From: a virus
Virus record (IMG/VR): IMGVR_UViG_3300021963_000192
Location: 1-49,241 of that record
DNA: 49,241 nucleotides
Reading direction: 5' to 3' (one strand)
This document shows, piece by piece, positions 4,066 to 40,841 of this stretch (positions within the stretch are counted from its first letter, which is position 1; each line of letters begins with the position of its first letter). Below the pieces are notes generated by a model. The model worked only from the letters and a program-made list of their open reading frames with translations, did no database searches and had not been told where the DNA came from. The translations under genes and the position numbers were made by a program.

Positions 4066-4095
4066 TTCATTTTAGTATTGTTTATATTTATTGTT

Positions 4096-14795: not shown

Positions 14796-15710
14796 ATGGC
14801 AGTAGGAAGTTACGGAACAATAAGACCAGCAGATGTATCCCCAGAAGATGTAGAAATCATACTTCATTATGTGGAAAATAGAGCATCAACAACAGAACCG
14901 ACACTAACAAAGTTGGATTCATCTGATATTCTGACCCCGGTTTTTCATAATTCAGAAACGGGAGGAACATCCGATACCGAAATTTTAGGCGGTTTATATA
15001 ATCTTAGACTAAATAGTGACACATTTAGTGACTTAGGTATCTACACTTTACACCTTAGACCAAAACAAATTAGAACGGAAATTACTGATTGTGGTGTTTT
15101 AGCATCACTACCATCTGTTAGAGGATTGGTTATTGATTTAGGTAATGTTGGTACAGACGATAGAAACAAGTTTGTTCCACAAGGTCTTGTTGGTTATAGA
15201 ATAGAATATATTGACAAGTCAAATTCACAAAAAGTTCCTAATTTTTACAGAGTAGTGACTTCATCATTTTATTGTGAACCAGTTACAACAAATTTAACAA
15301 ATAGTACCCAAAAAGCGATTAGATATAGATATTCAGATGCGCCAACCAATTTAGTGTTCTTAACACTTACACCGTCTTCTGCACCTAGCAATAGACCAAA
15401 TGTAACACCATTTATTGGGGAACCATCACAAAATATTATTTTAACCAACAGTTATTTTAACCCAACTACCGTTGAGGTTGAAATGGTTGAGCATGATGCA
15501 TCAACACTTGCACACGCACTTTATGGTAATCAAAGTAAGGCGTTAAATTCTGGTATTTACACAATTTATGACAAGAACAATAATAACGCGATTTATAAAC
15601 AGTTCAATCTTTATGAGGTTAAAGATGATCTTAACGAAACTCTTTATGAGATTCGCGAAGAGAAAACTGATATAGACCAAACATTAAACTTTGACGATAT
15701 TACCGAATAA
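14796..15710 (+). CDS. Predicted tail/baseplate protein of unknown family (304 aa)
   Basis: The protein begins MAVGSYGTIRPADVSPEDVE, followed by a helix (IILHYVENRAST) and a beta-rich middle containing ILGGLYNLRL, SDLGIYTLHLRPKQIRT and SVRGLVIDLG. The last ~50 residues are charged and helical (YEVKDDLNETLYEIREEKTD). No signal peptide, transmembrane segment or enzyme motif is seen. A TATTTATA element lies just upstream and the stop codon overlaps the start of the 1841-residue wedge/adhesin gene by one base, so the two are translationally coupled and probably interact in the virion. The length and position suggest a wedge or fibre-attachment adaptor, but I do not recognise the family and do not assign one. 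Confidence 0.58.
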   Translation: MAVGSYGTIRPADVSPEDVEIILHYVENRASTTEPTLTKLDSSDILTPVFHNSETGGTSDTEILGGLYNLRLNSDTFSDLGIYTLHLRPKQIRTEITDCGVLASLPSVRGLVIDLGNVGTDDRNKFVPQGLVGYRIEYIDKSNSQKVPNFYRVVTSSFYCEPVTTNLTNSTQKAIRYRYSDAPTNLVFLTLTPSSAPSNRPNVTPFIGEPSQNIILTNSYFNPTTVEVEMVEHDASTLAHALYGNQSKALNSGIYTIYDKNNNNAIYKQFNLYEVKDDLNETLYEIREEKTDIDQTLNFDDITE

Positions 15711-18700
15711 TGGCAACAAGAAAAGTACCAAGTCAGGCTGCTAGTGGTTTCGAAACTTTTAGCGACAGTATTGTTGGAAGACAAATTACTGACGGTACTA
15801 GTCAATTAACTAACTCAAACTTTGCTTTAGATAGGGTCATCCCTGAAAAAGACACAAAGAGCTTTAAAACAGCACCATTTTCTGATTTTCTTACCTTAGA
15901 GGATCTTAAGATAGAAAATGATGTCCCAACAACAGTCAGACAATCTAATGGAGAAAAGAGACCAATAAGATTTAATTCAGACAAAACAGAAGGATCTAAA
16001 TCACTATTTGGTTCACTAAGAGAAAGAATTAGAGTTTCAGTTGGTAGAATTCTTAAAAATTATCCAGCTGCAATTTATGTCAATTCTGAAGGTTTATCAT
16101 CTACTTCAGATTATTCTGCTGAAAATATTGTTTATAATCCAACAACAGATAAAACAACATTTAATATTAAGTCAAGTAAATTCTTTAACCCATTTGATAT
16201 AGTTTTATCTGAACCGGTTGCAAACGATTTACTTTCAGTAGATAATGAAATTAGAAATCTATTTTCATCATACAACAAATATAGTATCGCCATTGGTGAT
16301 AAAACATATAACATATCAAAATATACAGAACCAACATCTAATAATGTTGTTTCATTGGAAGTTTATGGAAAGCCATTTACTGGTTCAACATATTCAACAA
16401 GTTATATAATTAGACCAAACAATTCTATTGTTGAAGAATTTTATCTTGGTTTGGACGACTTAGAACAAACATTATTAAATAGAGAAACATTTCCTATATT
16501 TCAAGCGTCGTTTAAAGTTCCTAGAACTAGTTTAGACGAAACAAAAACAGATTTAATTTATGTTTTAGTAGAATGGCCTGTTTCGAAAGATGGATGGAAC
16601 CCACAAACCACCGGTTTAAAATTTGATGAATATATAACTAAGTTAAACGACTTAGCAACAGAAATTGATGAATATAAATCAAATTTAGTTACCAGGTTTT
16701 TAGTTGCACCACAATTATTTGAATTTGACACCGAAGACCAAAAGATTGATAAAATATTTCAACTTTATGGCCAAAGCTTTGATAAAGTAAAATCGTTTAT
16801 TGATAACATTGCATACATGAGAAATGTGTCATATGACTCAATAAGCAATATCCCGGATGTTTTTCTTAAAAATCTTGCTAATACATTAGGTTTAAATACT
16901 ATTAATTTATTTGATCAAAAAACATTAGAAGAACAAATATATAATTCTTCTAAATCAGTTTACAATGGATCATCTATCGGTAAAAACTTGGTAGATGGTG
17001 AGTTAGAATTTTACAGAAGACTATTAGTTAATCTAGCATTTATATATAAGTCAAAAGGAACAAGAAGTAGTATTGAGTTTTTCTTAAAATTCATTGGTGC
17101 TCCAGATCCGATGATTAAAATCAATGAGTATGTTTATAATGTAAAAACTGCAATTTCTAAAACCTCGACAGAAGATGATATTTTTAATGTCATTAATAAT
17201 GTTGCGGTAAATAATAATGTAACGTTTAATTCAACAACATACACATATAGCTTACGTGCAATAACCGGAATGACAACATTCAGTAATACTACTGATTATC
17301 CAATCGATACTGACACATTTTTACCAAAAACCCCAACAACAAATCAGGATAATATATTTTTCCAAATGGGGTCTGGATGGCATAATGTTAGTTTAGATCA
17401 TAGATCTTCGGACATTATAGATACAGATAACTCTAGTGGTACATTTGTTGACGGTGATTTCATATTAACAGGTAGAACAAAAACAATTAAAACAAAATCA
17501 AAACCATATTCTTATGGTGAAGAATTTTTTGACATATATAGAACATTCCCAGGATTAGATTATGGTTACACATTAGAAAGTAAAATAGATAATGTCAAAA
17601 GCCAAGTTGTTGATGATTTAACAAGTACCGGTTTAATTCTAAACAGAAAAAATATCAGTGTGTTTGTTAGCCCAGCTAACGCGAGCAATTATGATATATG
17701 GAGAAAGTCTAGAGAATTAGAAGTGGTATTTGGAAAGAATAGTTTAGAAGTACAAAGTGACGTAAGCTTTGCTGAATATCTTGAAAATACTTTCTCAAAA
17801 CAGGTAGTTATCTCAAACTTAGTAAAATATAAGAAAAATTATATTCATCTAGAAGATGTGTATCAAGATTATATTAATCAATTGACATCTTCTGGGTACA
17901 CACCATATGACATGGTTGATTCAACAGATTTTGTTAATCAAATGAGTCCATATTGGTCAAATGTTTTAGAACAAATTATACCATCAACAACATTATGGAT
18001 GGGCGGTAATTTAATAGAAAACAATATTTTTGCTAGACCAAAGTTTTCATATAGAAAACCTTGTAAACCAATTGAAATAGTTGAGAATTTATATCCAGAT
18101 TTTGAAACCTTTATTGAAGAGGACTTAGAAACAATTGTTGGTGAACCGGACCACCTTAGAGGTTTAATGTACCTTACTGGTGTGACGTTCACATTAAAGA
18201 TGGATATTGACGGTATTGAATATAGTGGAACAACATCACAAGTTAAAATAACTGGTAGCACGTTATTTGATACTGGATATACCGCAACAAACAGCTGCAG
18301 TGTATTAACAAGTTCATCAACTAGTATCCCATTAATTTGTGATTATAAAAATTGGGTTAAATTAAATGTTTCAACAACAAAAACACTTTGGAAAAACGCG
18401 GTAATTGCTTTAGTTGATAAAATAAATTCAACATACAATGATCCAGTTGCTGGCCATTTACCAACCGAATCACCATATAGTGGTGTAACTTACGGTTGTG
18501 GTGCTAATTGCTCTGGTTATACACAATTAGTATCTTATGAATTTTTCACAGATAATGATGGTGTTGAAAAAGTTAAGTTTATTGCACATAGTAATTCAGG
18601 CTGTTTAGAAAAAAGATATTTAGATTTTTATTTTGACGCCGATTATCAATACTCACTACCTAAGTGTAGTTTAGATTTAGAATTTACAACTGTTTGCCCT

Positions 18701-21235
18701 GACGGTGTTTTATACCCAGTTTATACAGGATCAACAGAATGTAAATTAAAATCAGATATTATTGTTAATATTACTGGTGCAACTGTTCAATCTGGTGAAA
18801 CGTATGGTTGGGGAATTTACGTACAAAGAAATTCAATTCCAATTATAAATGCGTATGGTGGATATAGTTCAACATATACTGACACAACATTTGCACAGGT
18901 TAGTGGAAATACATGTCAGTTTAAAATATCAAATGTGTACGAAGATGAAATAATAGATTTATTATTCACTGACGCAGCCAATTGTGATAAAAAAGTGAGA
19001 ATTGATGGATTAAATTTACAATATGTTGAATTCCCAACAGAAACCCCAGATCAACCAATAGTTGTTAATACTGGTTTTACTATACATCCTAGAGTTCAAT
19101 ATAGAAATTCATACAACTATGGATTAAAGCATGATACAAAAGTTTTAGTACTAAGTGGTGCAACAATCAATAGCTCAACAACTCCAGCTAATATTCAAAG
19201 TTATATTACTGCAGGAACTTTAGTTAAAAAAGACGTTAAAGATATTGTGTCTGGAAATACAATTGTTTCTGCAACATATCTTCCATGTTCAACATTATCA
19301 AGTGGTGCATTTGAAGCCGCAGAATTAAGTAATAATTATTCCTTCTCATATTCATACACAACATATACAGTATCTAGAATTGATTCTTTAGGTTCAGTTA
19401 AAACTAGTGTTATTAGTGGAAGGACAGTTAGCGGAACAACAGTTGTTTTTGAAGTACTACCAACAAGTAAATTTAGAGTTTATACAAACAAAGAGGTTGA
19501 TGAAACTGATGGTAATATAACAAAAAGAAGTGGCTATGTATTTGATACTAGATCACCAGAATTCTTACAAATAAAACCCGAAACACCAATAGAGCCATGT
19601 TGTAATTATCCATCAGATTATTATGATACTGGTGATTATATTATAACAGAGAAAGGTGAACTAATTGAAGTAATTGCTGTTGACTTAAATTACTGTAATA
19701 TTAATATGTATTATAACATAAATGTTACAGGTAGTTTACCAACAAATTTAATTACATTTAATGGTAATTCAAATTACTTAGCATTACTTGAACATGAATA
19801 CATTGGATTTGAAATAGTTAGTTCATCAATGCAACAATATTATACTAATGAGTATTGTACAACAGTACCATCAATCGCATCACTAGAAAGAAATTATTCA
19901 AACGTAATTACTGGTTCTCCAGCATATACATGCGTTGGATCATACCCAATAATAACACCACAACCAACACCAACACAAACACCAACACAAACACCAACAT
20001 CTACACCAACACCAACACCTAGTTCAACTGCGACGCCAACTCCGACACCAACCGCAACGCCGATTCCGCCAACAGCAACACCAACTAGCACACCAACACC
20101 GACACCAACAGCAACACCTGCTGATGACTTCTGTGTTGATATTGTATTCACAGGTGCAACAGCAACACCGACAGCAACTGCTATTGTACCAACTGCAACA
20201 CCAACCCCGACATCAACAACGATTGCGTCAACACCTACACCAACGGCAACAGCTATTGCCCCAACACCAACTAGTACCCCTACTTGTATGTGTATTAGAT
20301 TAACAAATACAACAAACGACGATTTGTATATAACACTTACTCCTTGCGGTGGAAGCCCAATCTCTCAACTTGTTCCAAACGTTAATCTAACAAATGGAAT
20401 TAATGTAGTAACAGAATGTGTAGTAACAGGTTCGGTTGAAGGACCTGTTCCAGGAATTACAGTAGTCTATTGTTCAGATATTTCTTGTGATGAGGAAGAT
20501 GATTGTGGCACTTGCGGTTCAACGTCAACACCAACACCAACACCAACGGCAACAGCTATCGCCCCAACACCAACAGCAACAGCTATTGCTCCAACACCAA
20601 CACCAACAGCAACCCAATCATTTAATACAACCTGGTTCTACACTAATGGAAGGATATGTGAAAATAATATCTATTGGTTGAATAACACACCACAAGAAGT
20701 TGCAGATTATATAAATCATGTACTGATAAGTCCTAATTCAAGTTATGGTGGGTCACAATATGCATATCCATCATCTCAAACATTAGGTGTTGGAACAGAA
20801 ATATATAGTGGAAATATTACATACAATTTCTGTAGCTCATGTAATTTTACGGCGGTACAAACAGATTTTCCAGGAAATATAGACCGAAATGTATCTAACA
20901 TAATTAAGGTTGTTAATGGTATAGTAACTGAATTCACCCCATTAACTTCATATACATTTAACGCAATTTCATGTCCTGTTACAATTTATAATATTAGTAC
21001 TGGACAAACCAATCCATCGACAGAAGGTTGCACAGAATTGTCTGGTCCATATCCATATACAGCATATGGTAACAACTCAGATTGGACCGCAGTAACTAGA
21101 TTCTATTCTGAAGCCAGTATGTCAGTACCATATTATGGACAAAATAAATATTATGGTAGCAACGACCCATCAAGTTCCGGAACAGAATTAAAAATAGATA
21201 ATAATGGTAATGTTACAGACTCATACGCGTGTTAA
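15710..21235 (+). CDS. Giant baseplate protein: P2 gpI-like wedge region fused to Pro-Thr-linked distal domains
   Basis: The protein is 1841 residues long. Residues ~350-470 resemble the P2 gpI-type tail protein: a helical stretch LFQLYGQSFDKVKSFID, then VFLKNLANTLGL, then FIYKSKGTRSSIEFFLKFIG, whose 'KGT..aIE..l...G' is the hallmark. Further on, YWSNVLEQIIPSTTLWMGG matches a motif of wedge proteins in very large phages. From ~residue 1415 the character changes: three tracts of TPTPT/TATPT linkers (~1415-1475, ~1483-1523, ~1603-1638) separate small Cys-containing domains such as one beginning CMCIRLTNTTNDDLY. The C terminus ends DNNGNVTDSYAC, resembling the terminal domains of the proteins ending at 28042 and 31249. 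The layout suggests a baseplate-anchored base with flexible distal receptor-contact domains. The N-terminal assignment is moderate; the adhesin role is inferred. Confidence 0.72.
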   Translation: MATRKVPSQAASGFETFSDSIVGRQITDGTSQLTNSNFALDRVIPEKDTKSFKTAPFSDFLTLEDLKIENDVPTTVRQSNGEKRPIRFNSDKTEGSKSLFGSLRERIRVSVGRILKNYPAAIYVNSEGLSSTSDYSAENIVYNPTTDKTTFNIKSSKFFNPFDIVLSEPVANDLLSVDNEIRNLFSSYNKYSIAIGDKTYNISKYTEPTSNNVVSLEVYGKPFTGSTYSTSYIIRPNNSIVEEFYLGLDDLEQTLLNRETFPIFQASFKVPRTSLDETKTDLIYVLVEWPVSKDGWNPQTTGLKFDEYITKLNDLATEIDEYKSNLVTRFLVAPQLFEFDTEDQKIDKIFQLYGQSFDKVKSFIDNIAYMRNVSYDSISNIPDVFLKNLANTLGLNTINLFDQKTLEEQIYNSSKSVYNGSSIGKNLVDGELEFYRRLLVNLAFIYKSKGTRSSIEFFLKFIGAPDPMIKINEYVYNVKTAISKTSTEDDIFNVINNVAVNNNVTFNSTTYTYSLRAITGMTTFSNTTDYPIDTDTFLPKTPTTNQDNIFFQMGSGWHNVSLDHRSSDIIDTDNSSGTFVDGDFILTGRTKTIKTKSKPYSYGEEFFDIYRTFPGLDYGYTLESKIDNVKSQVVDDLTSTGLILNRKNISVFVSPANASNYDIWRKSRELEVVFGKNSLEVQSDVSFAEYLENTFSKQVVISNLVKYKKNYIHLEDVYQDYINQLTSSGYTPYDMVDSTDFVNQMSPYWSNVLEQIIPSTTLWMGGNLIENNIFARPKFSYRKPCKPIEIVENLYPDFETFIEEDLETIVGEPDHLRGLMYLTGVTFTLKMDIDGIEYSGTTSQVKITGSTLFDTGYTATNSCSVLTSSSTSIPLICDYKNWVKLNVSTTKTLWKNAVIALVDKINSTYNDPVAGHLPTESPYSGVTYGCGANCSGYTQLVSYEFFTDNDGVEKVKFIAHSNSGCLEKRYLDFYFDADYQYSLPKCSLDLEFTTVCPDGVLYPVYTGSTECKLKSDIIVNITGATVQSGETYGWGIYVQRNSIPIINAYGGYSSTYTDTTFAQVSGNTCQFKISNVYEDEIIDLLFTDAANCDKKVRIDGLNLQYVEFPTETPDQPIVVNTGFTIHPRVQYRNSYNYGLKHDTKVLVLSGATINSSTTPANIQSYITAGTLVKKDVKDIVSGNTIVSATYLPCSTLSSGAFEAAELSNNYSFSYSYTTYTVSRIDSLGSVKTSVISGRTVSGTTVVFEVLPTSKFRVYTNKEVDETDGNITKRSGYVFDTRSPEFLQIKPETPIEPCCNYPSDYYDTGDYIITEKGELIEVIAVDLNYCNINMYYNINVTGSLPTNLITFNGNSNYLALLEHEYIGFEIVSSSMQQYYTNEYCTTVPSIASLERNYSNVITGSPAYTCVGSYPIITPQPTPTQTPTQTPTSTPTPTPSSTATPTPTPTATPIPPTATPTSTPTPTPTATPADDFCVDIVFTGATATPTATAIVPTATPTPTSTTIASTPTPTATAIAPTPTSTPTCMCIRLTNTTNDDLYITLTPCGGSPISQLVPNVNLTNGINVVTECVVTGSVEGPVPGITVVYCSDISCDEEDDCGTCGSTSTPTPTPTATAIAPTPTATAIAPTPTPTATQSFNTTWFYTNGRICENNIYWLNNTPQEVADYINHVLISPNSSYGGSQYAYPSSQTLGVGTEIYSGNITYNFCSSCNFTAVQTDFPGNIDRNVSNIIKVVNGIVTEFTPLTSYTFNAISCPVTIYNISTGQTNPSTEGCTELSGPYPYTAYGNNSDWTAVTRFYSEASMSVPYYGQNKYYGSNDPSSSGTELKIDNNGNVTDSYAC
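19960..20285 (+). repeat. Pro-Thr linker tracts in the giant wedge/adhesin gene
   Basis: The DNA is a degenerate CCAACA/ACACCA hexamer-like repeat encoding [14 protein letters not shown] and TATAIVPTATPT, interrupted by a short Cys domain (DDFCVDIVFTG). Long stop-free frames in the other frames and on the opposite strand (VGVGVG, QHQHQ) are by-products. Confidence 0.9.
20520..20616 (+). repeat. Third Pro-Thr linker tract of the giant wedge/adhesin gene
   Basis: The tract encodes [20 protein letters not shown] and a second ATAIAPTPTPTAT copy. The unit 'CAACAGCTAT(C/T)GC(C/T)CCAACACCAACAGCAA' is tandemly duplicated (about 20550-20600), also present near 20250. Confidence 0.85.
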
Positions 21236-21248
21236 AATATAATAAAAA

Positions 21249-23015
21249 ATGTTAACTACTTTTACATATAACGGACATTATAACGGAAAACCTTCATGGC
21301 AAGGTAGCCTTAGTGGCGTTACATGTAATGTAAGATGGAATGGTAGTGATTATTGGACAATAAACCCTTGGCCATATGGTGGGGAACCTAGAAATTATAC
21401 AACAACAGATCTACCAGATACTGGTTGGACAATTAATGGAACAAGTAGTGTAACATCAATAAACCTTAATTTAGGTAGTTGTCCGTTACCTCCAACACCA
21501 ACCGCCACACCAACACCGACACCAACAACTAGTCCCACACCAACTCCTAGCCCTACTCCTAGTCCAACACCTAATTGTAATTTTGGTGTGGGTGTTAATA
21601 TAGTTACAGCTACACCAACACCTACTCCTACACCAACTTCAGATTGTGCTTTTGAGGTAACCTCAAATGTTGTTACCGCAACACCAACCCCAACCCCAAC
21701 GCCAACAGAAAACTGTGAGTTTGATTTAGGTGTTAATATTATTACAGCAACACCGACTCCAACACCTAGTCCTACACCAAACTGTGATTTTGGAATGGGG
21801 GTTAATATTATTACTGCCACGCCAACTCCAACACCTAGTCCAACACCAAACTGTGATTTTGGGGTGGGTATTAATATTATTACAGCAACCCCAACTCCAA
21901 CAACGAGTCCTACACCAACGCCAAGTCCTACACCAAACTGTGATTTTGGGATGGGTGTTAATGTTATTACAGCTACACCAACTCCAACAACAAGCCCAAC
22001 ACCAACACCGACACCAACAGAAAATTGTGAATTTGGTGTGGATACCAATATTATTACAGCTACCCCGACACCGACACCAAGCCCAACACCAAGCCCAAGT
22101 CCAACGGAAACACCTACACCTACTCCAACCCCAACAGAAAATTGTGATTTTGGGATGGATATTAATGTGGTAACAGCAACCCCAACTCCAACGCCTACTC
22201 CAACACCAAGTCCAAGTCCAACAGAAACCCCAACACCTACTCCAACTCCAACAGAAAATTGTGATTTCGGAGTTGATACTAATATTATTACAGCCACACC
22301 GACTCCAACACCAAGTCCTTCACCTAGTCCTAGCCCAACACCAAGTCCTAGTCCTACACCGAGTCCTAGTCCAACTGAAACACCAACACCAACACCAACA
22401 CCAACAGAAAATTGTGATTTTGGGGTTGATACGAATATCATTACGGCCACGCCAACTCCAACGCCTAGTCCAACACCAACAACTAGTCCTACACCAACGC
22501 CAAGTCCAACACCAACAGCAACTATTGATTGTGCTTTGGATACAACTGTAACACCAGAGTTAACTGAAGTGGTTAACTGTTTGGCTAATATGGAATTTAT
22601 TGTTCAATATAGCCCAACAGTAGGCCCGTGTCCTGGTGGCCATGGTTGTAATGCTGCAACATTTTACTTAAGAGGTAATAACATTACAATCGGAACGGTT
22701 TATTTAAGTAATACTGGCGGTTCTAACGATCAATTCAACTATCCGGCTGGTGTAACAAGTGGTCCTGCTAGATATAATTCATTAACCTTAACAACGCAAC
22801 AAGCTCAAGATATTGCAGCATCGTCCACAGGTGGTAATATAAACTTTTCATTAGTATGTGCCACACCGTTAAATGTGGATTATGGTTGGGGTCTGGGTGG
22901 TTGTCACACAAATGTAACTTGGATTACAATGAAGCTTAATACAGAAACAATTTATAGTGGCTGTCCAAATAATAATTTCTTAACTATAAACCCATGTACT
23001 GGGGTAATATCATAA
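21249..23015 (+). CDS. Pro-Thr repeat adhesin-like virion protein with ten Cys minidomains
   Basis: Residues 1-80 form an aromatic-rich beta domain ([17 protein letters not shown]) ending at a Cys. Residues ~80-430 are an array of about ten units of the form N-C-(D/E/N)-F-(G/D)-(V/M)-x-x-N-I-(I/V)-T-A followed by a [10 protein letters not shown] linker of 10-40 residues. The linkers grow longer toward the C-terminal end of the array. Residues ~430-588 form a Cys-containing beta domain ([37 protein letters not shown]). One Cys per minidomain suggests intersubunit or intermodule disulphide or metal contacts, but that is speculation. The gene starts 13 nt after the giant wedge gene and ends 1 nt before a 92-residue gene. 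The tandem DNA structure makes length variation between relatives likely. Confidence 0.72.
21489..22530 (+). repeat. Tandem array of Cys minidomain plus Thr-Pro linker units
   Basis: About ten coding repeat units, each with an AA(C/T)TGTGA(T/G)TTTGG-like core followed by AT(T/C)ATTACAGC(A/T)AC and a run of CCAACACC-type codons. The best-conserved units (at about 22020, 22135, 22250 and 22400) share near-identical DNA around the ACAGAAAATTGTGA core. The same unit occurs once in the 23302 gene (about 23670-23715). Confidence 0.9.
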
Positions 23016-23301: not shown

Positions 23302-26300
23302 ATGGCAAAGAAGTTTTACGTAAAGATTGTTTCTGGTAGTGACTTAGGTCCATATAATGTTTATTATGACCAAGTTAATTCGGCAAATCTTGCAACTAAT
23401 TTTGATACATCATTTCTTGCCACAGGGGTTACACTTACAGAATTAACAGTAAACTTAGGTTTACATATTAGTGTTCCAGATGAGGCCACTAAAATAATTG
23501 TATACAATACTAATGCCAGGGTTATTGCGGAGTGTCAATCAAATATTGATGAGACTATTTTACCAACACCCACTCCAACATCCTCACCAACACCAACCCC
23601 AAGTCCAACAGCAACACCAACGCCTAGCCCAACACCAAGTCCTAGTCCAACGCCAACACCGTCTCCAACACCAAACTGCGAATTTGGTGTGGATACTAAT
23701 ATTATTACAGCTACACCAACGCCGACACCAACACCAACTGAAAGTTCGACACCGACGCCAACACCAACGTCAACACCAACACCAACGCCAAGTCCAACAG
23801 CGACACCTAATTGTTTATTTTTAATTGATACAACAGTTAATTATGCGCCAACAGATATATCGTTAAGTCACAATAGAATAAATGAAAATTCTTCAATTGG
23901 AACATTAGTTGGTTATTTATCAACAACATCAGGTGATAGTAGTGATACACATATATATTCTATAGTAAATTCGGCCCCTTTTACTATTAGTACTAATGGG
24001 TTATATAGTTCAATATCATTCAACTATGAGGCAACGACTTCATATACAGTAGCAATTCGCACCACTGATAGTGTTGGGCAATATTATGATAAACAATTTA
24101 CAATTTATATTGATAATGTAAACGAAGCACCATATGGAATTCAAATTTCTGGTTCAATACCTGAGAACAGCGCCATTGGAACAACAGCTGGAACATTATC
24201 TACTTTGGATGTTGATGCTGGCGATACATTTACATATTCATTAATTAATACTGGTTCATATCCAGATAATAATAGTTTTGATTTAAGCTCTGGTGGTGTA
24301 TTAACGTCAAAAGAAGTTTTTGATCTTGAAACAAAAAGCACATATCAATTAAACGTAAGAACAACAGATTCTGGAGGTTTGACATATGATGCTATTGTAA
24401 TGGTACAAGTAACTAATGCAAACGAAGCACCAACAGGTATTGATTTATCATCGTCTTCAATATCTGAAAATGTTGCAACGGGAACAACTATTGGTACTTT
24501 TTCAACATATGATCCTGATGCTGGAGATACATTTACATATGTTTTTACCGATAATAGTTCTTATCCAGATAATGGTAGTTTTACTATTGTGGGCAATACT
24601 TTAAAATCTAAATTTGTATTTGATTACGAAACAAAAAATACATATCTTATAAGAGTTAGATCAACAGATGCTTTAGGGTTATATGTTGATGTTTCAATGT
24701 ATATTTACATAACAGATGTTGTTATAACAGCATCTAGATCTTCAACAAATGTTTCATGTAATGGAGGATCTAATGGTACAATAACAATAACCAGTCCAAG
24801 TGGTGGTTCAGGTAGTTATACATATTCAAAAAACGGGTCTACCTATCAATCAAGTAATATATTCACAGGTTTAACAGCTCAAACATATGAATTATATGTT
24901 AAAGATTCAAATAATGAAGTTGGTCAATTAACATCACTTACAATAACACAACCATCATTAATAACTTTTACTGCAAGTGGGACACCGCCAACATGTAATG
25001 GTGATTCAAATGGCTCAATAACATTATCTAGTGTTAGTGGAGGTGTCGCACCATACACATATTCAATTGATGGTTCAACATATCAAGCTGGTTTAACATT
25101 TACTGGTTTAGCAAATGGCACATATACAACATACGTTAAAGATGCTAATGGGTGTGTTAGAACAAATACAACTGGTTTAAATAGAACACAAGTAAGTGCA
25201 ACGATATCACAATCAAATGTGGCATGTTACAATGGAACAACAGGTTCAATTACAGTAAGTAATGGTAGTGGTGGTTCGGGGTCCGGTTATCAATCAAAAA
25301 TTGGTTCTGGAGGAACATACGCAAATTTACCAGTAACGTATTCTAGTTTATCTTCTGGTGCATATACAATATATGTTAAAGATAGTTCTGATTGTGTTAA
25401 TAGTTTTGGTGTAACTATAACTCAACCAGCGACTCCAGTTAGTGCTAATTCTGATACAAATATCGCACCAACTTGTTTTAACGATAGTGATGGGCAAGTA
25501 GCGTTCTTCGGTAGCGGAGGAACATCACCATACACATATTCAATTGATGGTGTTAACTATCAATCAAGTGGTACTTTTAATAATTTACCAAATGGAAACT
25601 ACACTGGCTACGTAAAAGATGCTAATGGGTGTATTGCAACAATTGCAAGAAACATTAATAGAAGTGTACCAGCAGCGTCATATAGTATTAGTAATGTTTC
25701 ATGTAATGGTGGATCAAATGGCTCAATAGCGGTGAGTAGTGGTACTGGTGGGTCAGGAACTGGTTACCAAGCAAAAAATGGCTCAGGAGGAACATACGCA
25801 AATTTACCAGTAACGTATTCTAGTTTATCTTCTGGTACATATACAATATATATTAAAGATAGTTCGGGTTGTGTTCAAACATACAATCAAACAGTAACAC
25901 AACCAAGCGCGGTATCTATATCAGTATCTGGTACAAATCCAACATGTTGGAATGGTAGTGATGGATCAGCATCGGCTTCAGGTTCTGGTGGAACGGGTGG
26001 TTATACATATTCAAAAGATGGAACAAACTATCAATCTAGCGGGACTTTTAGTAGTTTGGGTACCGGATTTTATACAATATATGTCAAAGATAGTAATGGT
26101 TGTATAACATATGATTATGTATTATTATCTAGATCCGAACCAAATGCAACAATATCAGTAAGCAACCCCGATTGTAACGCAGGAACAGGAACAATCAATG
26201 TTTCTGGTGGTTATGGTGGTTCAGGTTCAGGATATCAAGCTAAACTTGGTTCAGGTGGTACATATGCAAACTTACCAGTAAGTTATTCATCATTAGGTGG

Positions 26301-27420
26301 TGGAACATACACAATTTACATTAAAGATGGTTCAGGTTGTGTTCAAACATATTCAGCAACCGTAACTATACCATCGGCAGTATCTGGTTCTATTACTTCA
26401 GCGTCATTCCCAACTTGTTATAACTCAACAAACGGATCGTTAACAATTCAGGGTGGTGGCGGTACACCAAATGCATCGGGGTACAAATATGATATTAGTA
26501 GTAATGGCGCACCATACTCATCATTAACAACATTTAAAGCATCACACACATTTAGTAATTTAGCTAGTGGCAATCACTCTATACAAATAATTGATAATAA
26601 TAGTTGCTTTGCAATAGTCTCATACAATTTAACAGTATCAACACCAGAACTCGGATCAGTAACAGTTACCAATGTTTCATGTAATGGTGGATCAGATGGT
26701 TCTATTGCTGTTGCAACATTAAATGGTGGTTCGTCACCTAGACAAGTATCAATTGATGGTTACAATTATTATTATCCACCAAAAACATTTAGTAGTTTAG
26801 TGTCAGATACATATACACTGTATGTTAAAGATGCAAATGGTTGTGTTGCGGGATATGGTCAAGGAATAAGTCAACCAACCGCACAAACGGCGTCATTAAT
26901 AATTATTACTAACCCAACATGTTCATCTCCAAGTTCTGGAGTTTTAGAATTGTCATCATCTGGTGGAGTATTTCCTAAAACATATAGATTATATGTTGAT
27001 ACAAGTTCACCATATAATACATGTGGAGGAGATTTGGTTGGAACATATAGCACTTCCACGTATGGTACAACATTTAATGTTAGCGACTTAACATCATATG
27101 GTTATTGCCTAGAAGTTACAGATGCTAATGGTTGTGTAACAAATAGTGGAGTAACAGCCATTTCACCACCAGTAACATTCTATAGGTATGAAGTGCTAAA
27201 CTGTGGTAATTCTGGTCTTCTTCTTATGACATCTCCTGATTTATTACCAAGTCAATTCTTAGGAAAATCTGTTAAAATAGATAATATATGTTACCAAATA
27301 AATTATTTAGCAGACACCGTGTGTTCTACTGAAACACTACACTTGATTGATGGGCAATATTCAGGGATATATAATACATGTAATGATTGTACTGGAGGAG
27401 GTCCAGGACAGATACTTTAA
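23302..27420 (+). CDS. Large tail adhesin: cadherin repeats plus ten SprB-type repeats
   Basis: The 1372-residue protein is modular. Residues 1-88 form an N-terminal beta domain with [11 protein letters not shown], related to the start of the 27464 protein. Two Thr-Pro linkers (~90-125, ~139-170) flank one Cys minidomain. Three cadherin-like repeats follow (~182-272, ~274-372, ~374-472), with [20 protein letters not shown] and NEAP junctions. Ten SprB-type repeats (~473-1290) carry the pattern [10 protein letters not shown]...YTYSKDGxxYQ...FxxLxxGxYTxYVKDxNGC, ending in TQPS. The C-terminal ~80 residues form a Cys domain (CYQINYL ... YNTCNDC). SprB repeats are typical of Bacteroidota gliding adhesins, so they point to the host and to host-cell contact. 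Repeats 2-7 alternate between two subtypes, implying duplication of a two-repeat unit. A tail-fibre or adhesin role is strongly suggested, not proven. Confidence 0.82.
23564..23814 (+). repeat. Thr-Pro linker tracts with one shared Cys minidomain
   Basis: Two TPTPT/SPTPTP tracts surround [14 protein letters not shown], identical in protein to a unit in the preceding array gene at about 22027-22065. Confidence 0.88.
24958..26376 (+). repeat. Higher-order repeat of ~475 bp (paired SprB-type units) inside the adhesin gene
   Basis: SprB-type repeats starting near 24958, 25435 and 25909 share the subtype [16 protein letters not shown]...KDANGC. Those starting near 25190, 25669 and 26143 share the subtype [19 protein letters not shown]. 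The paired period is 474-479 bp. A stretch of about 50 bp is identical between about 25308-25358 and 25784-25834. Confidence 0.8.
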
Positions 27421-27463: not shown

Positions 27464-28042
27464 ATGCAAATTACATTCACATTAAGTCCAAGTTATACAG
27501 GAGCAACATTTGTTGCTGGTCCTTTTAACATTTCGGGTACAACTAGCGCAGGTACATCATATTGGTTAGCAACTGGTGTTACAAAAACAGAATTAACAAC
27601 TGGTTATTCAATTAATACAGTTTATGAAACATTAACAGGTGGTACAATTGCTAGTACTGGCACATGTTCAACAACACAACCTTGGTATGTTACGGCGCCA
27701 AGCCCAACACCAACACCAACAGCAACAGGTAGTGGTGCAACATTATATGCATTACAACTTCAGGGTCCATACAATTCATGTAATAATGCATGTAGTCAAT
27801 TCAACGGAAACCCTTCATATTCAATATTCTATGGTACTGAATCTAGTTTTAATGCTTTAGCATCATTACAGGGTACTTTATACACACAAAATGTTGCTGA
27901 TCCAAGTAACTATGCATCAGTAGGTTATTACTATCATACTTCTGGTTATATAATGCAAATTGCAGGATTTGATGGGGTAGTTAGTTCTAGTGTTCAACTA
28001 TGTGGTGGAAATAACGCTTGTGGCGGTGGTGTGACACCTTAA
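27464..28042 (+). CDS. Small two-domain tail protein with Thr-Pro hinge (192 aa)
   Basis: The protein has an N-terminal beta domain (residues 1-80) with YWLATGVTKTELTTGYSINTV. This resembles the N-terminal domain of the 1372-residue adhesin ([14 protein letters not shown]), so the two start with homologous modules. A short hinge APSPTPTPTATG (about residues 80-91) leads to a C-terminal domain with Cys-rich NSCNNACSQFNG and an ending of YIMQIAGFDGVVSSSVQLC then GGNNACGGG. The C-terminal domain resembles that of the 434-residue protein ending at 31249 (YSIQIISTGEVTSVQYLTSC). It looks like a minimal version of the adhesin architecture: attachment domain, hinge, distal domain. A strong terminator lies 24 nt after its stop, so it ends a transcription unit. 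Confidence 0.65.
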   Translation: MQITFTLSPSYTGATFVAGPFNISGTTSAGTSYWLATGVTKTELTTGYSINTVYETLTGGTIASTGTCSTTQPWYVTAPSPTPTPTATGSGATLYALQLQGPYNSCNNACSQFNGNPSYSIFYGTESSFNALASLQGTLYTQNVADPSNYASVGYYYHTSGYIMQIAGFDGVVSSSVQLCGGNNACGGGVTP

Positions 28043-28126: not shown

Positions 28127-29920
28127 ATGGGATTAAATATAAGATTATATGGGATCAATTCACCCAAAGCGTTTACCTTATCATATAAGATAGGTAAGAC
28201 TGCTGGTGATGAATCTGTTATAGCAACAGGATACACATCTTATGGATCATTATATCCCGCTAGTACTTCTAGAAATTATACTGATAACCCAATTATATTT
28301 ACAGATGCATCGTTTGATACACAATATTGGTTTAAATTAACATATACTGGTGATACTGGTGATGTTAATTATGTTATTGAAAATATATTTACAAATGAAG
28401 CAGAAGTTTATGATAATTGTATAAATTATTGTTATTTCCCTAATGCTGGTTCAGCATCATTTGTACCACCGCCAACACCAACACCAACACCGTCATCACC
28501 TCCGTGTGATTTCTCTGGTGGAACAGCAACGGTTGTTATTGGGCCTACCCCAACACCTAATCCAACTGCCACACCAACTAATACACCAACTAATACACCT
28601 ACACCAACGCCAACGCCAACGTCAACAACTAATGTTAATGTTGATCCAACATATTATTATTATGCAATGGGTGATTGTACGGATATGAGATATTCATATA
28701 CCGCATCAACAATCACTGGATTTAGTGCACCAATACAGGTGCCAGGTTGTGCTACATTAGCAGAAATTGGAACACTTTCATTACAAAACCCAGCAACAAC
28801 ATCATATACCGTATCTAATCCATTAGACCCTTGTGGTTTTGGTAGTGGGTATGTGGGAACAACGATTGCTAGAAGTTCAACTGGAATAACGGAAGGTACG
28901 GTGTATACAATAGGTTCACAATGTTTATCTGTTATTGCTGTTGAAACCCAATATGTTACAGGATGGACAGTTAATTTAGATAATTATACAGCTGTTGGTA
29001 TCGGTAATGCTGCTTGTACATCATGTGATCCACCATTTACCGGATTTACAATAACCGGATACAGTGGTGTTACATGTGATACCGGTGCAAATGTAATAGC
29101 ATACTCTTTATTAGGTGGATTTACCATGGGTAATGTTTATGGAATACAAATGTATAGCGGAGGAACAGCAACAGGTTCGCGTATATGCATGACATTAAAT
29201 GCAAACTTAGGTCCGCAATTTGTTATTGAAGATCCTGAAACCGAAGGTATCACTGGATATCAAATTAGTGATGCTGGACCAGCGACATTCCCACCTACAT
29301 TTAGTGGATACACCAATTGCACAGCATGTAACAGTGTCGTTCAAAAATATATGATTACTGGTGATAGATGTGATACCACAGGTAGCGTTACAATATGGTC
29401 AGCAACTGCACCAACGGTGGTAAGTGGAAATACAATTACGGTGAACATTGCTGGAACTCCAGTATGCTTCCTTGTAACACAGGCAGATCAATTTACTTCT
29501 GTGGTTTATAATGATTTAGGTTATACAATAGCTGATACGGGTTGTAATTGTAATGGAAATACCGGAGGAGGTAATATTAATGTTGCTAACATTGATTTCG
29601 CGCCATCACAATTCTCAAATACGGGAGGTGAGTGTCAAAGTCCACAGTCCTCATACTATACTGAGACCACATCAACTGAAATGCAGTTAACATTTAAAGA
29701 CGCAAGTAATAATCAGGTAACACCTAATGCTACTGTTCAGTATCGAGTTAACGGAGGCACATGGGTTACACTACCGGTAACATCATCAACAGTATCTTTT
29801 TCAGTAACGTTAATATATGGGGATAATACTAACTGTAGTCTTGGCGGATCTTATGCTGACACGTTAGATATAAAAGTTGGAACAATAACCGTTGAATATT
29901 ACACCGCAGGAAGTAGTTAA
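28127..29920 (+). CDS. Tail protein with repeated Cys-capped domains and a Thr-Pro hinge (597 aa)
   Basis: The N-terminal ~115 residues form a beta domain ending in DNCINYCYFPNAG. A hinge with TPTPTPSSPP, a single CDFSGGTATVV minidomain and a second PTPTPNPTATPTNTPTNTP stretch cover ~120-165. From ~residue 170 there are three copies of a small domain whose pattern is an opening aromatic strand with a Cys (YYYYAMGDCTD; FTITGYSGVTCDTG; KYMITGDRCDTTG), a strand containing 'VY.I' or a central Cys (GTVYTIGSQCLSV; NVYGIQM; IAGTPVCFLV), and an ending such as AACTSC or NCTAC. The same domain ends the SprB adhesin (CYQI ... YNTCNDC). The C-terminal ~100 residues form an Ig-like beta-sandwich (VQYRVNGGTWVTLPVTSST). 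It is a probable fibre or decoration component; the receptor is unknown. Confidence 0.66.
   Translation: MGLNIRLYGINSPKAFTLSYKIGKTAGDESVIATGYTSYGSLYPASTSRNYTDNPIIFTDASFDTQYWFKLTYTGDTGDVNYVIENIFTNEAEVYDNCINYCYFPNAGSASFVPPPTPTPTPSSPPCDFSGGTATVVIGPTPTPNPTATPTNTPTNTPTPTPTPTSTTNVNVDPTYYYYAMGDCTDMRYSYTASTITGFSAPIQVPGCATLAEIGTLSLQNPATTSYTVSNPLDPCGFGSGYVGTTIARSSTGITEGTVYTIGSQCLSVIAVETQYVTGWTVNLDNYTAVGIGNAACTSCDPPFTGFTITGYSGVTCDTGANVIAYSLLGGFTMGNVYGIQMYSGGTATGSRICMTLNANLGPQFVIEDPETEGITGYQISDAGPATFPPTFSGYTNCTACNSVVQKYMITGDRCDTTGSVTIWSATAPTVVSGNTITVNIAGTPVCFLVTQADQFTSVVYNDLGYTIADTGCNCNGNTGGGNINVANIDFAPSQFSNTGGECQSPQSSYYTETTSTEMQLTFKDASNNQVTPNATVQYRVNGGTWVTLPVTSSTVSFSVTLIYGDNTNCSLGGSYADTLDIKVGTITVEYYTAGSS
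28469..28626 (+). repeat. Thr-Pro linker with a CDFSGG minidomain
   Basis: CCAACACCAACACC-type tracts encode [11 protein letters not shown] and [17 protein letters not shown] on either side of PCDFSGGTATVVIG. Confidence 0.85.
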
Positions 29921-29944: not shown

Positions 29945-31249
29945 ATGGCATATACAGCATTAGTAAGTTTAGGTTCAACAATAGGTATAGGAATAACATC
30001 TGTTAAACTATACGAATGTACAGGTAATAATAGTGGATGCACCGCATTATCGAACTACAGTAATGTTCCTGTGTCATCATTTAACCCAACTTATATAGTT
30101 ACCGGAATAACCGATGGTAAAACATGGCTTAAAGTAGAACCTGTAGGTGCTTGTAGTGGAACAACACAAAACTTACAAGTTTCAGGTTTCCCTGGCCCAA
30201 CAGCAACACCAGCACCGACAGCAACACCAGCACCGACAGCAACAGCTGGTCCTGGTCCAACAGCAACGCCAACACCAACAGCAACTACAGTTGTACCAAC
30301 ACCAACCCCGACAGCAACAGCTGGTCCTGGGCCAACAGCAACACCAACACCAACAGCAACTGAAACACCATATTATTTACAATTAAGTCGTTGTGATTCT
30401 GCGCCTAATACAGTAACAGGATGGACATTAAATGCGTTCACACAATCACAAATACAAGTTGGTGAAATATTCTACTCTGCTGGTGGATATTATTATCAAG
30501 TAATTAATTATCAAATAGCACAGCCAAGTCCTGCGGGTACATTAGAGGGTACCAAAGCATCATCAGAATATCAAACTTGTTCTGATACACCAAATGCGTA
30601 TGTTGCACCACCACCAACACCTGGGGTTTCAATTTTAGTACATACTGGATCAACATTTAGCGGTAGCGCAGCACCTTGTGCAATGTATGAATCAGATATT
30701 GCAACAAACAGCGTAACACTTTATCTAAGTGGACATACAATACCTGCAAATGGTGATTATGCATATGATACAAACGTATGTGTTACAACATTTGTTGGTG
30801 ACGGAACATATTATGCGGTATTGGCAAATAGTTCAAAGTATACAATGACAATTGGACCAACAGGATATATAAATAACGTTATTCAATGTGGCGCTATACC
30901 AACCGCAACACCAACACCGACTCCTAGTCCAACACCAACATCGGTAGTGTTATATGGATTATTTAGATCACAAGGATTATCAACGTTTAATGGTCATTGT
31001 GAAAACAACTATACAACCAATGCTCAATTCTATGGTGTAACAACATCACCTAATAGCTTATATGGAACTATTGTGTATGCAGATACAGAATACACACCAT
31101 TTGACGGAGGTGGATTATTTTACGCTTTAGGTACTGATAGTCAATCTAATACAAATGATTTACCATACTATTCAATACAAATTATTAGTACTGGTGAAGT
31201 AACTAGTGTACAATATCTAACAAGTTGTGGTGGTAGTTCTCAAGCATAA
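29945..31249 (+). CDS. Tail protein with Ala-Thr-Pro repeat hinge and Cys domains (434 aa)
   Basis: Residues 1-82 are a beta domain (VSLGSTIGIGITSVKLYECT ... TWLKVEPVGACSG). Residues ~84-140 are a hinge of PTATPAPTATPAPTATAGPG type that contains a near-perfect 54-bp DNA duplication. Residues ~140-215 form a Cys-bounded domain (YYLQLSRCDSAP ... FYSAGGYYYQVIN ... EYQTCSD), a variant of the domain repeated in the preceding protein. After a middle domain (~225-315) and another hinge ([12 protein letters not shown]), the C-terminal domain ends YYSIQIISTGEVTSVQYLTSC, similar to the ending of the 192-residue protein. The protein is therefore assembled from modules shared with its neighbours. It is probably displayed on the tail; the partner is unknown. 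Confidence 0.66.
   Translation: MAYTALVSLGSTIGIGITSVKLYECTGNNSGCTALSNYSNVPVSSFNPTYIVTGITDGKTWLKVEPVGACSGTTQNLQVSGFPGPTATPAPTATPAPTATAGPGPTATPTPTATTVVPTPTPTATAGPGPTATPTPTATETPYYLQLSRCDSAPNTVTGWTLNAFTQSQIQVGEIFYSAGGYYYQVINYQIAQPSPAGTLEGTKASSEYQTCSDTPNAYVAPPPTPGVSILVHTGSTFSGSAAPCAMYESDIATNSVTLYLSGHTIPANGDYAYDTNVCVTTFVGDGTYYAVLANSSKYTMTIGPTGYINNVIQCGAIPTATPTPTPSPTPTSVVLYGLFRSQGLSTFNGHCENNYTTNAQFYGVTTSPNSLYGTIVYADTEYTPFDGGGLFYALGTDSQSNTNDLPYYSIQIISTGEVTSVQYLTSCGGSSQA
30233..30361 (+). repeat. 54-bp direct repeat in the hinge of the 434-residue tail protein
   Basis: Copies at 30233-30286 and 30308-30361 differ at two positions; each encodes [17 protein letters not shown]. They are separated by a 21-nt spacer. 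Confidence 0.88.
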
Positions 31250-31275: not shown

Positions 31276-33396
31276 ATGAGTTTTTTAAATAGTAATAATT
31301 CAGAGTTCTTATCTGCAAGAATAACAAGAAGAGGTAGACAATCTATTGCTGAAGGTAATTTTAATATAAAATATTTTCAGATCGGAGATTCTGAGTTTGA
31401 CTATAATGGTAAATTTAGTGGATTCACTGGTGCAATAACCGGTGGAACTAGAGCCCCACACCAAAGAATTTTTGCGCCAGTTGACGGCGATCAACATGTT
31501 AAGTATCCATACCTAATTGATGCTAATGAAACAATTAATTTTGGTAATGCAGCACAACAATCATATGTTGACACGTTAAAAAATCCAATGGGTCCTGCTG
31601 GATTTGTTTCACAGTATGTACCATATAATGCTGATCCATGCACAGGTTCAACTATTGAATGTTTAAGCAAAAAAATAGATTTATCTGTAATTGGTGGTGG
31701 AAGTATCTTATCAGTTACTGGAGCCACAGATTTTTCAGAATGCCAATATATTACATTAGTTTTTAAAGCTGATTTTGTTGGATCGGAATATACCATAAGT
31801 GGAAATACACAAAGTTTAGTTTATAAAATAACTGGTACTAGTGCAAATGAAATTTATTTGGATAGAAATATGCCTAATTTTTCTGGACAAACAGGAACAG
31901 CTAGAGTGGTTTGTAATAAATGTAAATTAGAGTATCCACAAGAAACTGAAGTTGCTGATGTTTGTTCACCAGTAGCACCTGATAATTTAGCACAACACGA
32001 TCCATGGCAATTAGATTTAGTTTGGACTGACGAGCCAGCTGGTTTAGACACATTAAGTGATGATGAGTATATTTCTGGTTATACTGGATCTCAATTCGCA
32101 TCATTAAAAGAATATCTTGGTTACACATCAAACACAGGTCAAACATTTACAAATACAACTGGTGGCACAATATCTAATCCAACATCATATACAAATACAT
32201 TTGGAGAAAAAGTTGATGTTAAACCAGCTAACCAAAGAGCAATAGCTGTTATTCATTTTTCTGAATTGGGTGATATTGTTAATGATCCAGAAAGATTCTT
32301 TAAATATGATGACTATATTGCTCATGGAACAATCGATAATCAAACATTATATGGAGAACAAATATCTGACGCAGAATATTTCGAAGTTTATATCCCATTT
32401 TTATTATATCACAGAAACACTGGGTCTACAATTGGAGCAGTATTTACTATGGGTACAACTGATTATTATGTATCATCCGCGGTAAATAATAAACCAAACA
32501 CTAATAACCTTAAATTTAGATTCTTAGTCGATCAACAAGGTGTTAATGTTGGTAAAGTATTCGTTGATAAGAAAATAATTGTTTTTGATGATCAAGAATT
32601 GGTTGCGGCATTAGAATACAAAACAAATAGAAAGTGGACATTACCAGCACCAAGATTTAGCACAGTACCAGTTGACTTACCGACATTCTATGATTTAGAT
32701 CCGGTTATTCTATCTGGTGAAACCGCTTGGGTAACTTATATGTTTCAAAATACCTCAACAACAGGTATTACTGGTATGCATTGTAATTACTATGGTGAAA
32801 TTACTGGATCAACAAATTCTAATATTGGTTTTAAGTTTAATACTGGTGAATTTAAATTTCTAAGTGATAGTTCACAATTTACAGGTTTCACAGCTAATAA
32901 GTTTTACGCATTAGTACAAGTGCCACAACCTGGAGAAAAACCTTCACCAAACGATTGGACCTTAATTGATTTAACATCTCAAATATCTGGTCACACTGTG
33001 GGTAATTTAATAAATAAAACAAATATGTGTGGTTATCAATTTGTTGTAACCGGTGATATGATAACTGCCGGAACACCATATAATATTGAATCATTCTTAG
33101 GAAGTTTACCTGATAAAACACAAACAACATCACCACAATTTGGTGACCCTCAACCATTTCCAGGTAGTATTAAGTTAACTAGAGCAACAGATGTTCAGGT
33201 TTTAAATTTTATGGTAAATCTACCATCTTCACAATTTATTACCACACAAAATCCAACATATGTTACTGGTCAACAAAAAAGAATCACTGAAGTTGCTTTA
33301 TTAAATGATAATAAAGAACCGTTAGTAATGGCTAAGACCCCGAAACCAATCCAAAGAATTGGAAATCAAGTGTTTTCTGTTAGATTAGATTTCTAA
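31276..33396 (+). CDS. Large tail/baseplate structural protein (706 aa)
   Basis: The N terminus reads SFLNSNNSEFLSARITRRGR and then FNIKYFQIGDSEFDYNG. This 'R.T..GR..iA.G...i..f.iGDsE' pattern recurs at the start of tail or baseplate proteins in large phages. The remainder is beta-rich with many SG/TG turns (ITGTSANEIYLDRN) and ends PLVMAKTPKPIQRIGNQVFS followed by VRLDF, a conserved-looking terminal strand. It contains three adjacent Cys-containing stretches near residues 110-130 and 210-230 (CNKCKLEYPQE). It has no signal peptide, no Thr-Pro hinge and no enzyme motif. It is the last gene of the ~29 kb structural block; the next gene is a Holliday junction nuclease after 40 nt. I cannot name the T4 equivalent. 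Confidence 0.65.
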   Translation: MSFLNSNNSEFLSARITRRGRQSIAEGNFNIKYFQIGDSEFDYNGKFSGFTGAITGGTRAPHQRIFAPVDGDQHVKYPYLIDANETINFGNAAQQSYVDTLKNPMGPAGFVSQYVPYNADPCTGSTIECLSKKIDLSVIGGGSILSVTGATDFSECQYITLVFKADFVGSEYTISGNTQSLVYKITGTSANEIYLDRNMPNFSGQTGTARVVCNKCKLEYPQETEVADVCSPVAPDNLAQHDPWQLDLVWTDEPAGLDTLSDDEYISGYTGSQFASLKEYLGYTSNTGQTFTNTTGGTISNPTSYTNTFGEKVDVKPANQRAIAVIHFSELGDIVNDPERFFKYDDYIAHGTIDNQTLYGEQISDAEYFEVYIPFLLYHRNTGSTIGAVFTMGTTDYYVSSAVNNKPNTNNLKFRFLVDQQGVNVGKVFVDKKIIVFDDQELVAALEYKTNRKWTLPAPRFSTVPVDLPTFYDLDPVILSGETAWVTYMFQNTSTTGITGMHCNYYGEITGSTNSNIGFKFNTGEFKFLSDSSQFTGFTANKFYALVQVPQPGEKPSPNDWTLIDLTSQISGHTVGNLINKTNMCGYQFVVTGDMITAGTPYNIESFLGSLPDKTQTTSPQFGDPQPFPGSIKLTRATDVQVLNFMVNLPSSQFITTQNPTYVTGQQKRITEVALLNDNKEPLVMAKTPKPIQRIGNQVFSVRLDF

Positions 33397-40082: not shown

Positions 40083-40121
40083 TTTAGTCGACTAATGATG
40101 GATTCCATACTATTTATCACT

Positions 40122-40841
40122 ATGGAATGTACTAATGGTTATATCTATCTTTTAACAGATAGTAGAAATGGTAAACAATATATCGGAAAACATGTCGGCA
40201 CTAATAAAAATTATTTTTCAGGTGGTCTTATACCAAATAAAATAGCTAAAAAATATGGGAAAGATGTTTTTACTAAGGAGATAATTGAAAATAATATTGT
40301 AGATGAAAAAACATTAATGGATAAAGAAATATATTATATTAAAAAGTATAATACGTTTAATAATGGTTATAATTTAACTGAAGGTGGCGATGGTGGAGGT
40401 TCTTGGATATTAAAAAAAACAGAAAATGAAAAAGAAAAAATATCTGAAATAAAGCGTAAGAAAAATATTGGTAGAGTTTTTTCAGACAATACTATAAAAA
40501 AAATGTCATTGGCTAAAAAAGGTATTCCATTAAGTGAAGAACATAAAAAAAACATCAGTAATGCACAATCCGGTAAAAACCACCCATGGTTTGGTAGAAA
40601 GCATAGTGATAAAACAAAAGAAATATTATCAGAAAAACGAAAAGGAACAAAAAATCAAAAACATTCTGATTTTATGAAAAAAAATAACCCAAGAAAATTG
40701 TCTGTTTCAATAAATGGGTGTATATTTGACTCAATACAAAATGCTTCAAATATTTTAAATGTTCCAAGGCATGTTGTAAAACAAAAACTAAATTCAGTAA
40801 ATTATCCTGATTGGATTAAAATTAAAAGACATGAACTCTAA
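40122..40841 (+). CDS. GIY-YIG homing endonuclease (Seg-like) with NUMOD3-type repeats
   Basis: From the ATG at 40122 the protein starts MECTNGYIYLLTDSRNGKQYIG: GYI and YIG are the two signature tripeptides. The remainder of the catalytic domain has YFSGGLIPNKIAKKYGKDVF and the family helix with MDKEIYYIKKYNTF, and then the NLTEGGDGGG loop. The C-terminal DNA-binding part contains NUMOD3-like motifs (GIPLSEEHKKNISNAQSGKN, WFGRKHSDKTKEILSEKRKG) and a terminal helix-turn-helix of IENR1 type (DSIQNASNILNVPRHVVKQK). An ATG at 40095 adds nine residues that do not belong to the domain. The gene overlaps the following protease gene by 11 nt and lies directly after gene 46. Its base content is more A-rich than its neighbours. 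It is probably a freestanding mobile element targeting a relative lacking this insertion. Confidence 0.9.
   Translation: MECTNGYIYLLTDSRNGKQYIGKHVGTNKNYFSGGLIPNKIAKKYGKDVFTKEIIENNIVDEKTLMDKEIYYIKKYNTFNNGYNLTEGGDGGGSWILKKTENEKEKISEIKRKKNIGRVFSDNTIKKMSLAKKGIPLSEEHKKNISNAQSGKNHPWFGRKHSDKTKEILSEKRKGTKNQKHSDFMKKNNPRKLSVSINGCIFDSIQNASNILNVPRHVVKQKLNSVNYPDWIKIKRHEL

Follow-up and report, generated by a model that had tools for sequence, protein, structure and literature searches.

The protein considered here has partial counterparts in several rather different systems. The SprB gliding adhesins and other T9SS-secreted SprB-repeat proteins of Bacteroidota contain homologous modules of ~80 aa in long tandem (≤53% identity per module), but our protein has no T9SS sorting domain, has a phage-specific head and tip and added cadherins, and is encoded in a tail gene cluster. 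Among isolated phages, the virion proteins of PHROG_26672 (Cellulophaga phi19:1 gp98, Nekkels_1, Polaribacter P12002S/L) have one SprB-type module (E=2.5e-11 for phi19:1) and are encoded in the tail region, whereas they have no cadherins, ten-module tandem, P/T linker or tip A, and belong to phages with genomes of ~49-57 kb; the record of phi19:1 gp98 reports its detection in virions by MS/MS. Jumbo phages of Caulobacter and Brevundimonas encode cadherin proteins to which the cadherin part is 27-36% identical, but the SprB part has no match there and the hosts are Alphaproteobacteria. In layout our protein resembles the modular receptor-binding proteins (RBPs) of the Klebsiella type, with their conserved N-terminal head and a C-terminus exchanged by recombination; experiments on Klebsiella phage RBPs showed that specificity follows the C-terminal module (PMC8262889). 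Our protein differs from these in that its rod is made of SprB/cadherin Ig-like modules, its tips are short (~66-150 aa) and no depolymerase domain was recognised. In gene order, finally, it resembles the fibre/spike cluster of the Flavobacterium phage vB_FspM_immuto, although neither SprB nor cadherin modules were detected in the immuto fibre region.

The window, by which we mean the whole 49,241-nt stretch of DNA analysed, is a fragmentary virus record of an uncultured phage (IMGVR_UViG_3300021963_000192). Its SprB-module ORF is intact with an ATG start, and four relatives align to the full length of its 1372-aa product at 77-100% identity. The features of the gene and its neighbourhood are as follows (window coordinates).

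4078-4548, + strand: gp25-like baseplate wedge gene (PF04965, E=4.4e-12; PHROG baseplate wedge)
4550-6382, + strand: gp6/J-like baseplate wedge gene (PF04865, E=4e-4, just below the cut-off; PHROG baseplate wedge)
13317-14771, + strand: baseplate wedge / tail fibre connector-like gene (phrog_677, E=1.2e-25)
15710-21235, + strand: large structural tail gene, an ORF; order kept in relatives, role by position
21249-23015, + strand: P/T-rich fibre gene upstream of the SprB fibre, an ORF; order kept in relatives, role by position
23302-27420, + strand: fibre gene, 1372 aa (intact ORF with SprB and cadherin Pfam matches)
23302-23553, + strand: N-terminal head of the fibre, residues 1-84, presumed docking domain (conservation; shared between fibres)
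23563-23811, + strand: P/T-rich low-complexity linker, residues ~88-170, presumed hinge (sequence, tandem-repeat finder)
23842-24723, + strand: three cadherin repeats, residues 181-275, 276-374 and 375-474 (PF00028; solved cadherins)
24724-26889, + strand: SprB-type modules R1-R9 (PF13573; own 80-position model)
24724-24957, 24958-25200 and 25201-25440, + strand: R1, R2 and R3
25441-25680, 25681-25917 and 25918-26148, + strand: R4, R5 and R6
26149-26385, 26386-26649 and 26650-26889, + strand: R7, R8 and R9
26890-27171, + strand: R10, a longer variant SprB module adjoining the tip, common to fibres with differing tips
27172-27417, + strand: C-terminal tip domain, tip A, residues 1291-1372 (82 aa), presumed receptor-binding (divergence; replacement in relatives)
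27464-28042, 28127-29920 and 29945-31249, + strand: three more P/T-rich fibre genes with the same layout
31276-33396, + strand: conserved structural-type gene with 80 relatives in IMG/VR, a fibre-independent lineage marker

The ten SprB-type and three cadherin repeats described in the earlier note were confirmed both by Pfam and by a model of the protein's own modules. In the HMM check that the note proposed, both families scored far above their Pfam cut-offs, SprB (PF13573) with E=7.8e-40 and 134.7 bits (cut-off 28; 7 stretches) and cadherin (PF00028) with E=6.1e-21 and 75.1 bits (cut-off 28.8; 3 stretches). The SprB match is specific, as no further Pfam family reached its cut-off in the repeat region. 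A six-frame search of the window gave 8 SprB matches, every one within the fibre gene, and the same type of search gave none in 14 control genomes. The Pfam SprB model covers only 37 residues of a module that is actually ~80 aa long; the modules were counted with an 80-position model derived from modules of the window itself, which yielded 10 SprB-type modules (residues 475-1290) behind the 3 cadherins (181-474). That the assignment to SprB is not a chance resemblance follows from a profile of nine window modules, which matched Bacteroidota proteins at E-values down to 4.5e-20 per genome. R2-R7 consist of a two-module unit present three times (mean identity 62% at lag 2 versus 36% at lag 1). 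This super-repeat had been overlooked before, as had the head (1-84), the P/T-rich linker (~88-170) and the non-SprB C-terminal domain (1291-1372). The cadherin part matched solved cadherins with E down to 1.6e-26, among them animal cadherins, and by sequence some of its residues, such as DVDAGD, FDLETK and NEAP, appear to resemble Ca2+-binding motifs.

What kind of virion protein is this? Tail fibre is the best-supported class because baseplate genes lie upstream and because in immuto, a cultured myophage, baseplate genes in the same order lead into annotated tail fibre/tail spike genes in the same slot; immuto proteins are also among the nearest in isolates (26% identity for the gp6-like protein, 35% for the primase). 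On these two grounds the earlier description of the gene product as a tail protein or adhesin is very probably correct. Among the window's own fibres a head profile matched the SprB fibre gene alone, and blastp found just an 11-residue motif in the linkers. In relative L010, only the N-terminal 87-113 aa are conserved in the homologues of the genes at 28127-29920 and 29945-31249. No chaperone gene for the fibre was identified.

Both ends of the fibre protein are phage-specific, the head and tip A each being found in 0 of 198 Bacteroidota genomes. The same type of head occurs on other fibres carrying different rods. Structures were modelled as monomers for two parts, the head and R9-R10-tip. 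The head model (pLDDT 86.6), in which the N-terminus is predicted to form the first strand, had no significant fold match in the PDB, the P22 tailspike head-binding domain appearing only at E=1.2. For the SprB region and tip a sequence search of solved structures returned nothing. The R9-R10-tip model (mean pLDDT 90.3), with R9 predicted to lie inside an Ig-like tandem, had its best PDB fold matches in 6xi3 (E=9e-4), which covers the extending part of a large bacterial adhesin, in the Salmonella adhesin SiiE (E=1.5e-3) and in further Ig/FnIII tandems. E-values were borderline, TM scores were low (0.25-0.39), and most of the likeness is to generic Ig-like tandems; we read this model as suggesting an Ig-like extender fold and nothing beyond it.

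What is most notable across relatives is the design of the fibre, with its variable C-terminus. The 47 distinct tails found behind R10 fall into 13 families by blastp, with lengths of ~66-150 aa, so that R10 is kept ahead of 13 tip families; eight of these families also occur on fibre ORFs that have no SprB modules. Tip exchange is illustrated by contigs L131 and L134. Their sequences agree at 98.1% over a first stretch of 3387 bp and at 99.1% over a second of 7753 bp, and the segment in between is cleanly replaced, 259 bp in one (L131:3388-3646) standing against 270 bp in the other (L134:4442-4711). Divergence sets in a few codons past R10 and identity returns directly behind the stop codon, so that the fibre tip alone was exchanged while the preceding 652 aa remain ~100% identical. 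In further pairs, different tips follow rods with 87-95% identity in their last two modules, and these pairs include tip A versus two other families. How might such swaps arise? A diversity-generating retroelement was considered and rejected, since 14 related contigs of up to 336 kb, most of them fragments, yielded no reverse transcriptase (PF00078). Given this result, the simplest mechanism would be homologous recombination through the conserved flanks.

The rest of the fibre varies in other ways. In a fibre-independent scan of IMG/VR with the 31276-33396 protein (which has no match among isolates) we obtained 80 loci, and where 8 kb or more of upstream sequence was available (45 distinct loci), a SprB-module ORF occupied this slot in 15, the others mostly having other P/T-rich fibres. 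A second scan used R10 plus tip A as query and is biased toward SprB fibres, so its tip family frequencies are not representative. Together the scans gave 63 distinct SprB ORFs, of which 28 carry the head, and the complete fibres range from 1 to 14 SprB modules, with cadherins numbering 0, 3 or 6. Cadherin-bearing fibres mostly have 6, 10 or 14 SprB modules (one has 8). These patterns could be due to block duplication or to a few ancestral lineages. A 642-kb metagenomic phage record has at least a dozen SprB modules.

Compared with three close relatives, the window's fibre shows 83-90% identity in the head, 70-100% in most rod modules and 49-57% in the tip. Apart from the replaced R3/R4 of L012, no domain has a higher dN than the tip (0.36-0.41), and pairwise dN/dS for the tip (0.21-0.39) is below 1, giving no sign of positive selection. 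Within the rod, R1-R3 (24724-25440) differ from those of L009 by a dS of only 0.03-0.04, compared with mostly 0.4-1.0 in flanking genes, a near-identity that points to a recent transfer within the gene. In L012, R3-R4 (residues ~634-793) are replaced by divergent modules (46-49% identity) amid modules that are ~80% identical.

The origin of the SprB modules was a separate question. With the nine-module profile we found SprB modules in 48 of 198 Bacteroidota genomes, and these matches, with E-values to 4.5e-20, make homology to cellular SprB-type modules secure. Outside close kin, the best match of all ten window modules is another phage (45-75% identity, versus 27-53% for cellular modules, which were sampled from ~40 loci only); for R10 the best phage module is 68% identical and the best cellular module 27%. 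The earlier note had regarded the module as captured from a host, and with 10/10 modules nearest to other phages, an outcome of a kind that the note itself had named as counting against its reading, a recent capture is unsupported. It had also proposed a phylogeny of the repeats. In a module tree of 80 columns, phage and cellular modules do cluster beyond chance (27 label changes versus ~124 when shuffled), but most forks are poorly supported and the tree is too poorly resolved to give the direction of transfer or to tell one transfer from several. Ancient exchange of modules with Bacteroidota is likely from these sequence comparisons, its direction and the number of events not being fixed by the tree.

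With phage-specific ends, a shared rod and exchange confined to the tip, we favour the reading that the gene encodes a long host-recognition tail fibre of a large myovirus-type phage, with a SprB/cadherin rod and an exchangeable C-terminal receptor-binding tip, and we give this a probability of roughly 0.72. In such a fibre the head would dock to the baseplate region and the P/T-rich linker would act as a flexible hinge. The three cadherins, which probably bind Ca2+ and are stiffened by it, would form a rod with the ten Ig-like SprB-type modules, and this rod would lengthen or shorten by module duplication and recombine along its length. We infer that the last ~82 residues are the tip that binds the receptor, the SprB modules serving only as extender, although they may also bind polysaccharide, as has been suggested for Ig-like modules in gut phages (PMC13370021). 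The tip is swapped as a cassette, presumably by way of conserved flanks, R10 upstream and the intergenic stretch downstream, and a swap would be expected to alter specificity while the fibre is otherwise kept.

A different division of labour would make the rod itself the adhesive part, the SprB/cadherin modules binding polysaccharide or extracellular matrix and holding the phage near its host, with the tip of minor importance, much as Ig-like domains have been suggested to aid adherence to mucus or surfaces. Ig-like modules of gut Bacteroidota phages mediate surface adherence (PMC13370021), there are up to 14 modules per fibre here and the rods persist across wide divergence; that near-identical phages exchange the tip and leave the rod unchanged nevertheless makes this unlikely as the main role, although both roles are compatible. 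We also considered whether the protein belongs to the capsid, as a decoration or another virion protein outside the tail, since its modules match PHROG_26672, which is filed under head and packaging. The match is confined to the module (best stretch, profile positions 218-277 of 679), whereas phi19:1 and P12002S match that profile over nearly its full length. In the isolates that define PHROG_26672, moreover, the gene stands behind the tape measure gene, and the context in the window is likewise tail, which together render a capsid location very improbable. Most improbable of all is a recent capture of an adhesin gene from a host, or an assembly error that joined host DNA to the contig. SprB modules are common enough in Bacteroidota for this to be conceivable, but contigs from many samples independently place this gene among the same phage neighbours, cellular modules are at most 53% identical, and head and tip are specific to phages.

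The earlier note proposed mimicry of the gliding adhesin, docking to the gliding or type IX machinery, or competition for the same polysaccharide. Spelled out, the phage would copy the gliding adhesin, engage SprF, the T9SS or the gliding machinery, or SprB's ligand, and be carried along the cell surface. The module family is indeed shared with Bacteroidota surface proteins, and gliding genes affect phage susceptibility and are tied to phage resistance in flavobacteria (PMC7345892, PMC13288928). It follows that gliding proteins may be phage receptors, but nothing links the SprB modules of this fibre to them. Docking to the gliding or T9SS machinery would be expected to require C-terminal features of SprB, and we doubt it because the sorting domain is missing: neither Pfam nor NCBIfam gave any match to a T9SS C-terminal sorting domain in the fibre protein, whereas in a comparable Pfam search of a Pontibacter SprB protein Por_Secre_tail appeared at E=3.9e-5, slightly below the cut-off. 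The C-terminus is instead an unrelated, exchangeable domain, and near-identical phages differ in this non-SprB tip and not in the SprB part. All window modules are nearest to those of other phages, and SprB modules are missing in this slot from two thirds of the sampled relatives. We accordingly hold mimicry and docking to be quite improbable. A related scenario, which we rate as no less doubtful, is that SprB rods allow the phage to be carried by, or otherwise to take advantage of, the moving adhesin system of gliding Bacteroidota, for instance by co-polymerising with host SprB-module proteins or being recognised by them, while the tip sets the fine specificity.

The host is likely a member of the Bacteroidota, as judged from scarce Shine-Dalgarno sequences (strong in only 1 of 35 genes), from the likeness of the sigma factor and from the hosts of isolates with SprB-type modules. 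Full-length sigma factors from 61 of 61 Bacteroidota genomes share 39-48% identity with that of the phage, the best match (48%) aligning over nearly the full length, in a comparison confined to that phylum. Isolated phages with SprB-type modules are those of Cellulophaga, Polaribacter and Tenacibaculum, all Flavobacteriaceae where a host or genus is named, and the earlier use of SprB as a clue to a Bacteroidota host agrees with this. Promoters lend the host no support, the Bacteroidota motif TTTG-N-TAnnTTTG being found 3 times versus 4.75 expected by chance.

Modular RBP design is already known, and the version with a SprB/cadherin rod and swappable tip would be a new variation on it; neither phage fibres with SprB modules nor their tip exchange turned up in the literature searched, in which subscription journals were sparsely covered. 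One paper there mentions SprB repeats and has phage only in the title of a cited reference, and PF13573 appears in one paper on structure prediction. Such fibres suggest a route by which a widespread group of large, mostly uncultured phages, probably of Bacteroidota, may switch targets. The tip, at ~66-150 residues, is a concrete, short candidate for the determinant of specificity, and L131/L134 are a natural swap pair. For annotation, SprB/cadherin matches on viral contigs are not necessarily host contamination or host adhesins, and SprB matches in metagenomes are unsafe markers of gliding bacteria.

A few further observations concern the relatives and the remainder of the window. In relative L016 the order is rearranged and the SprB fibre lies upstream, not downstream, of the conserved tail genes, and L009 has two extra ORFs (8569-9783 and 9812-11224) between its homologue of the 21249-23015 gene and the SprB fibre. 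No RNA families were found in the window. A GIY-YIG endonuclease-like ORF, recognised by sequence motif only (40095-40841), lies between genes for a recombination-type ATPase and a ClpP-like protease (40831-41502; PF00574, E=3e-56), which phage head maturation proteases match too. The sigma factor encoded at 44365-45177 is RpoD-like, and an Amidase_2 domain protein (46958-47599, E=6e-7) is a candidate endolysin.
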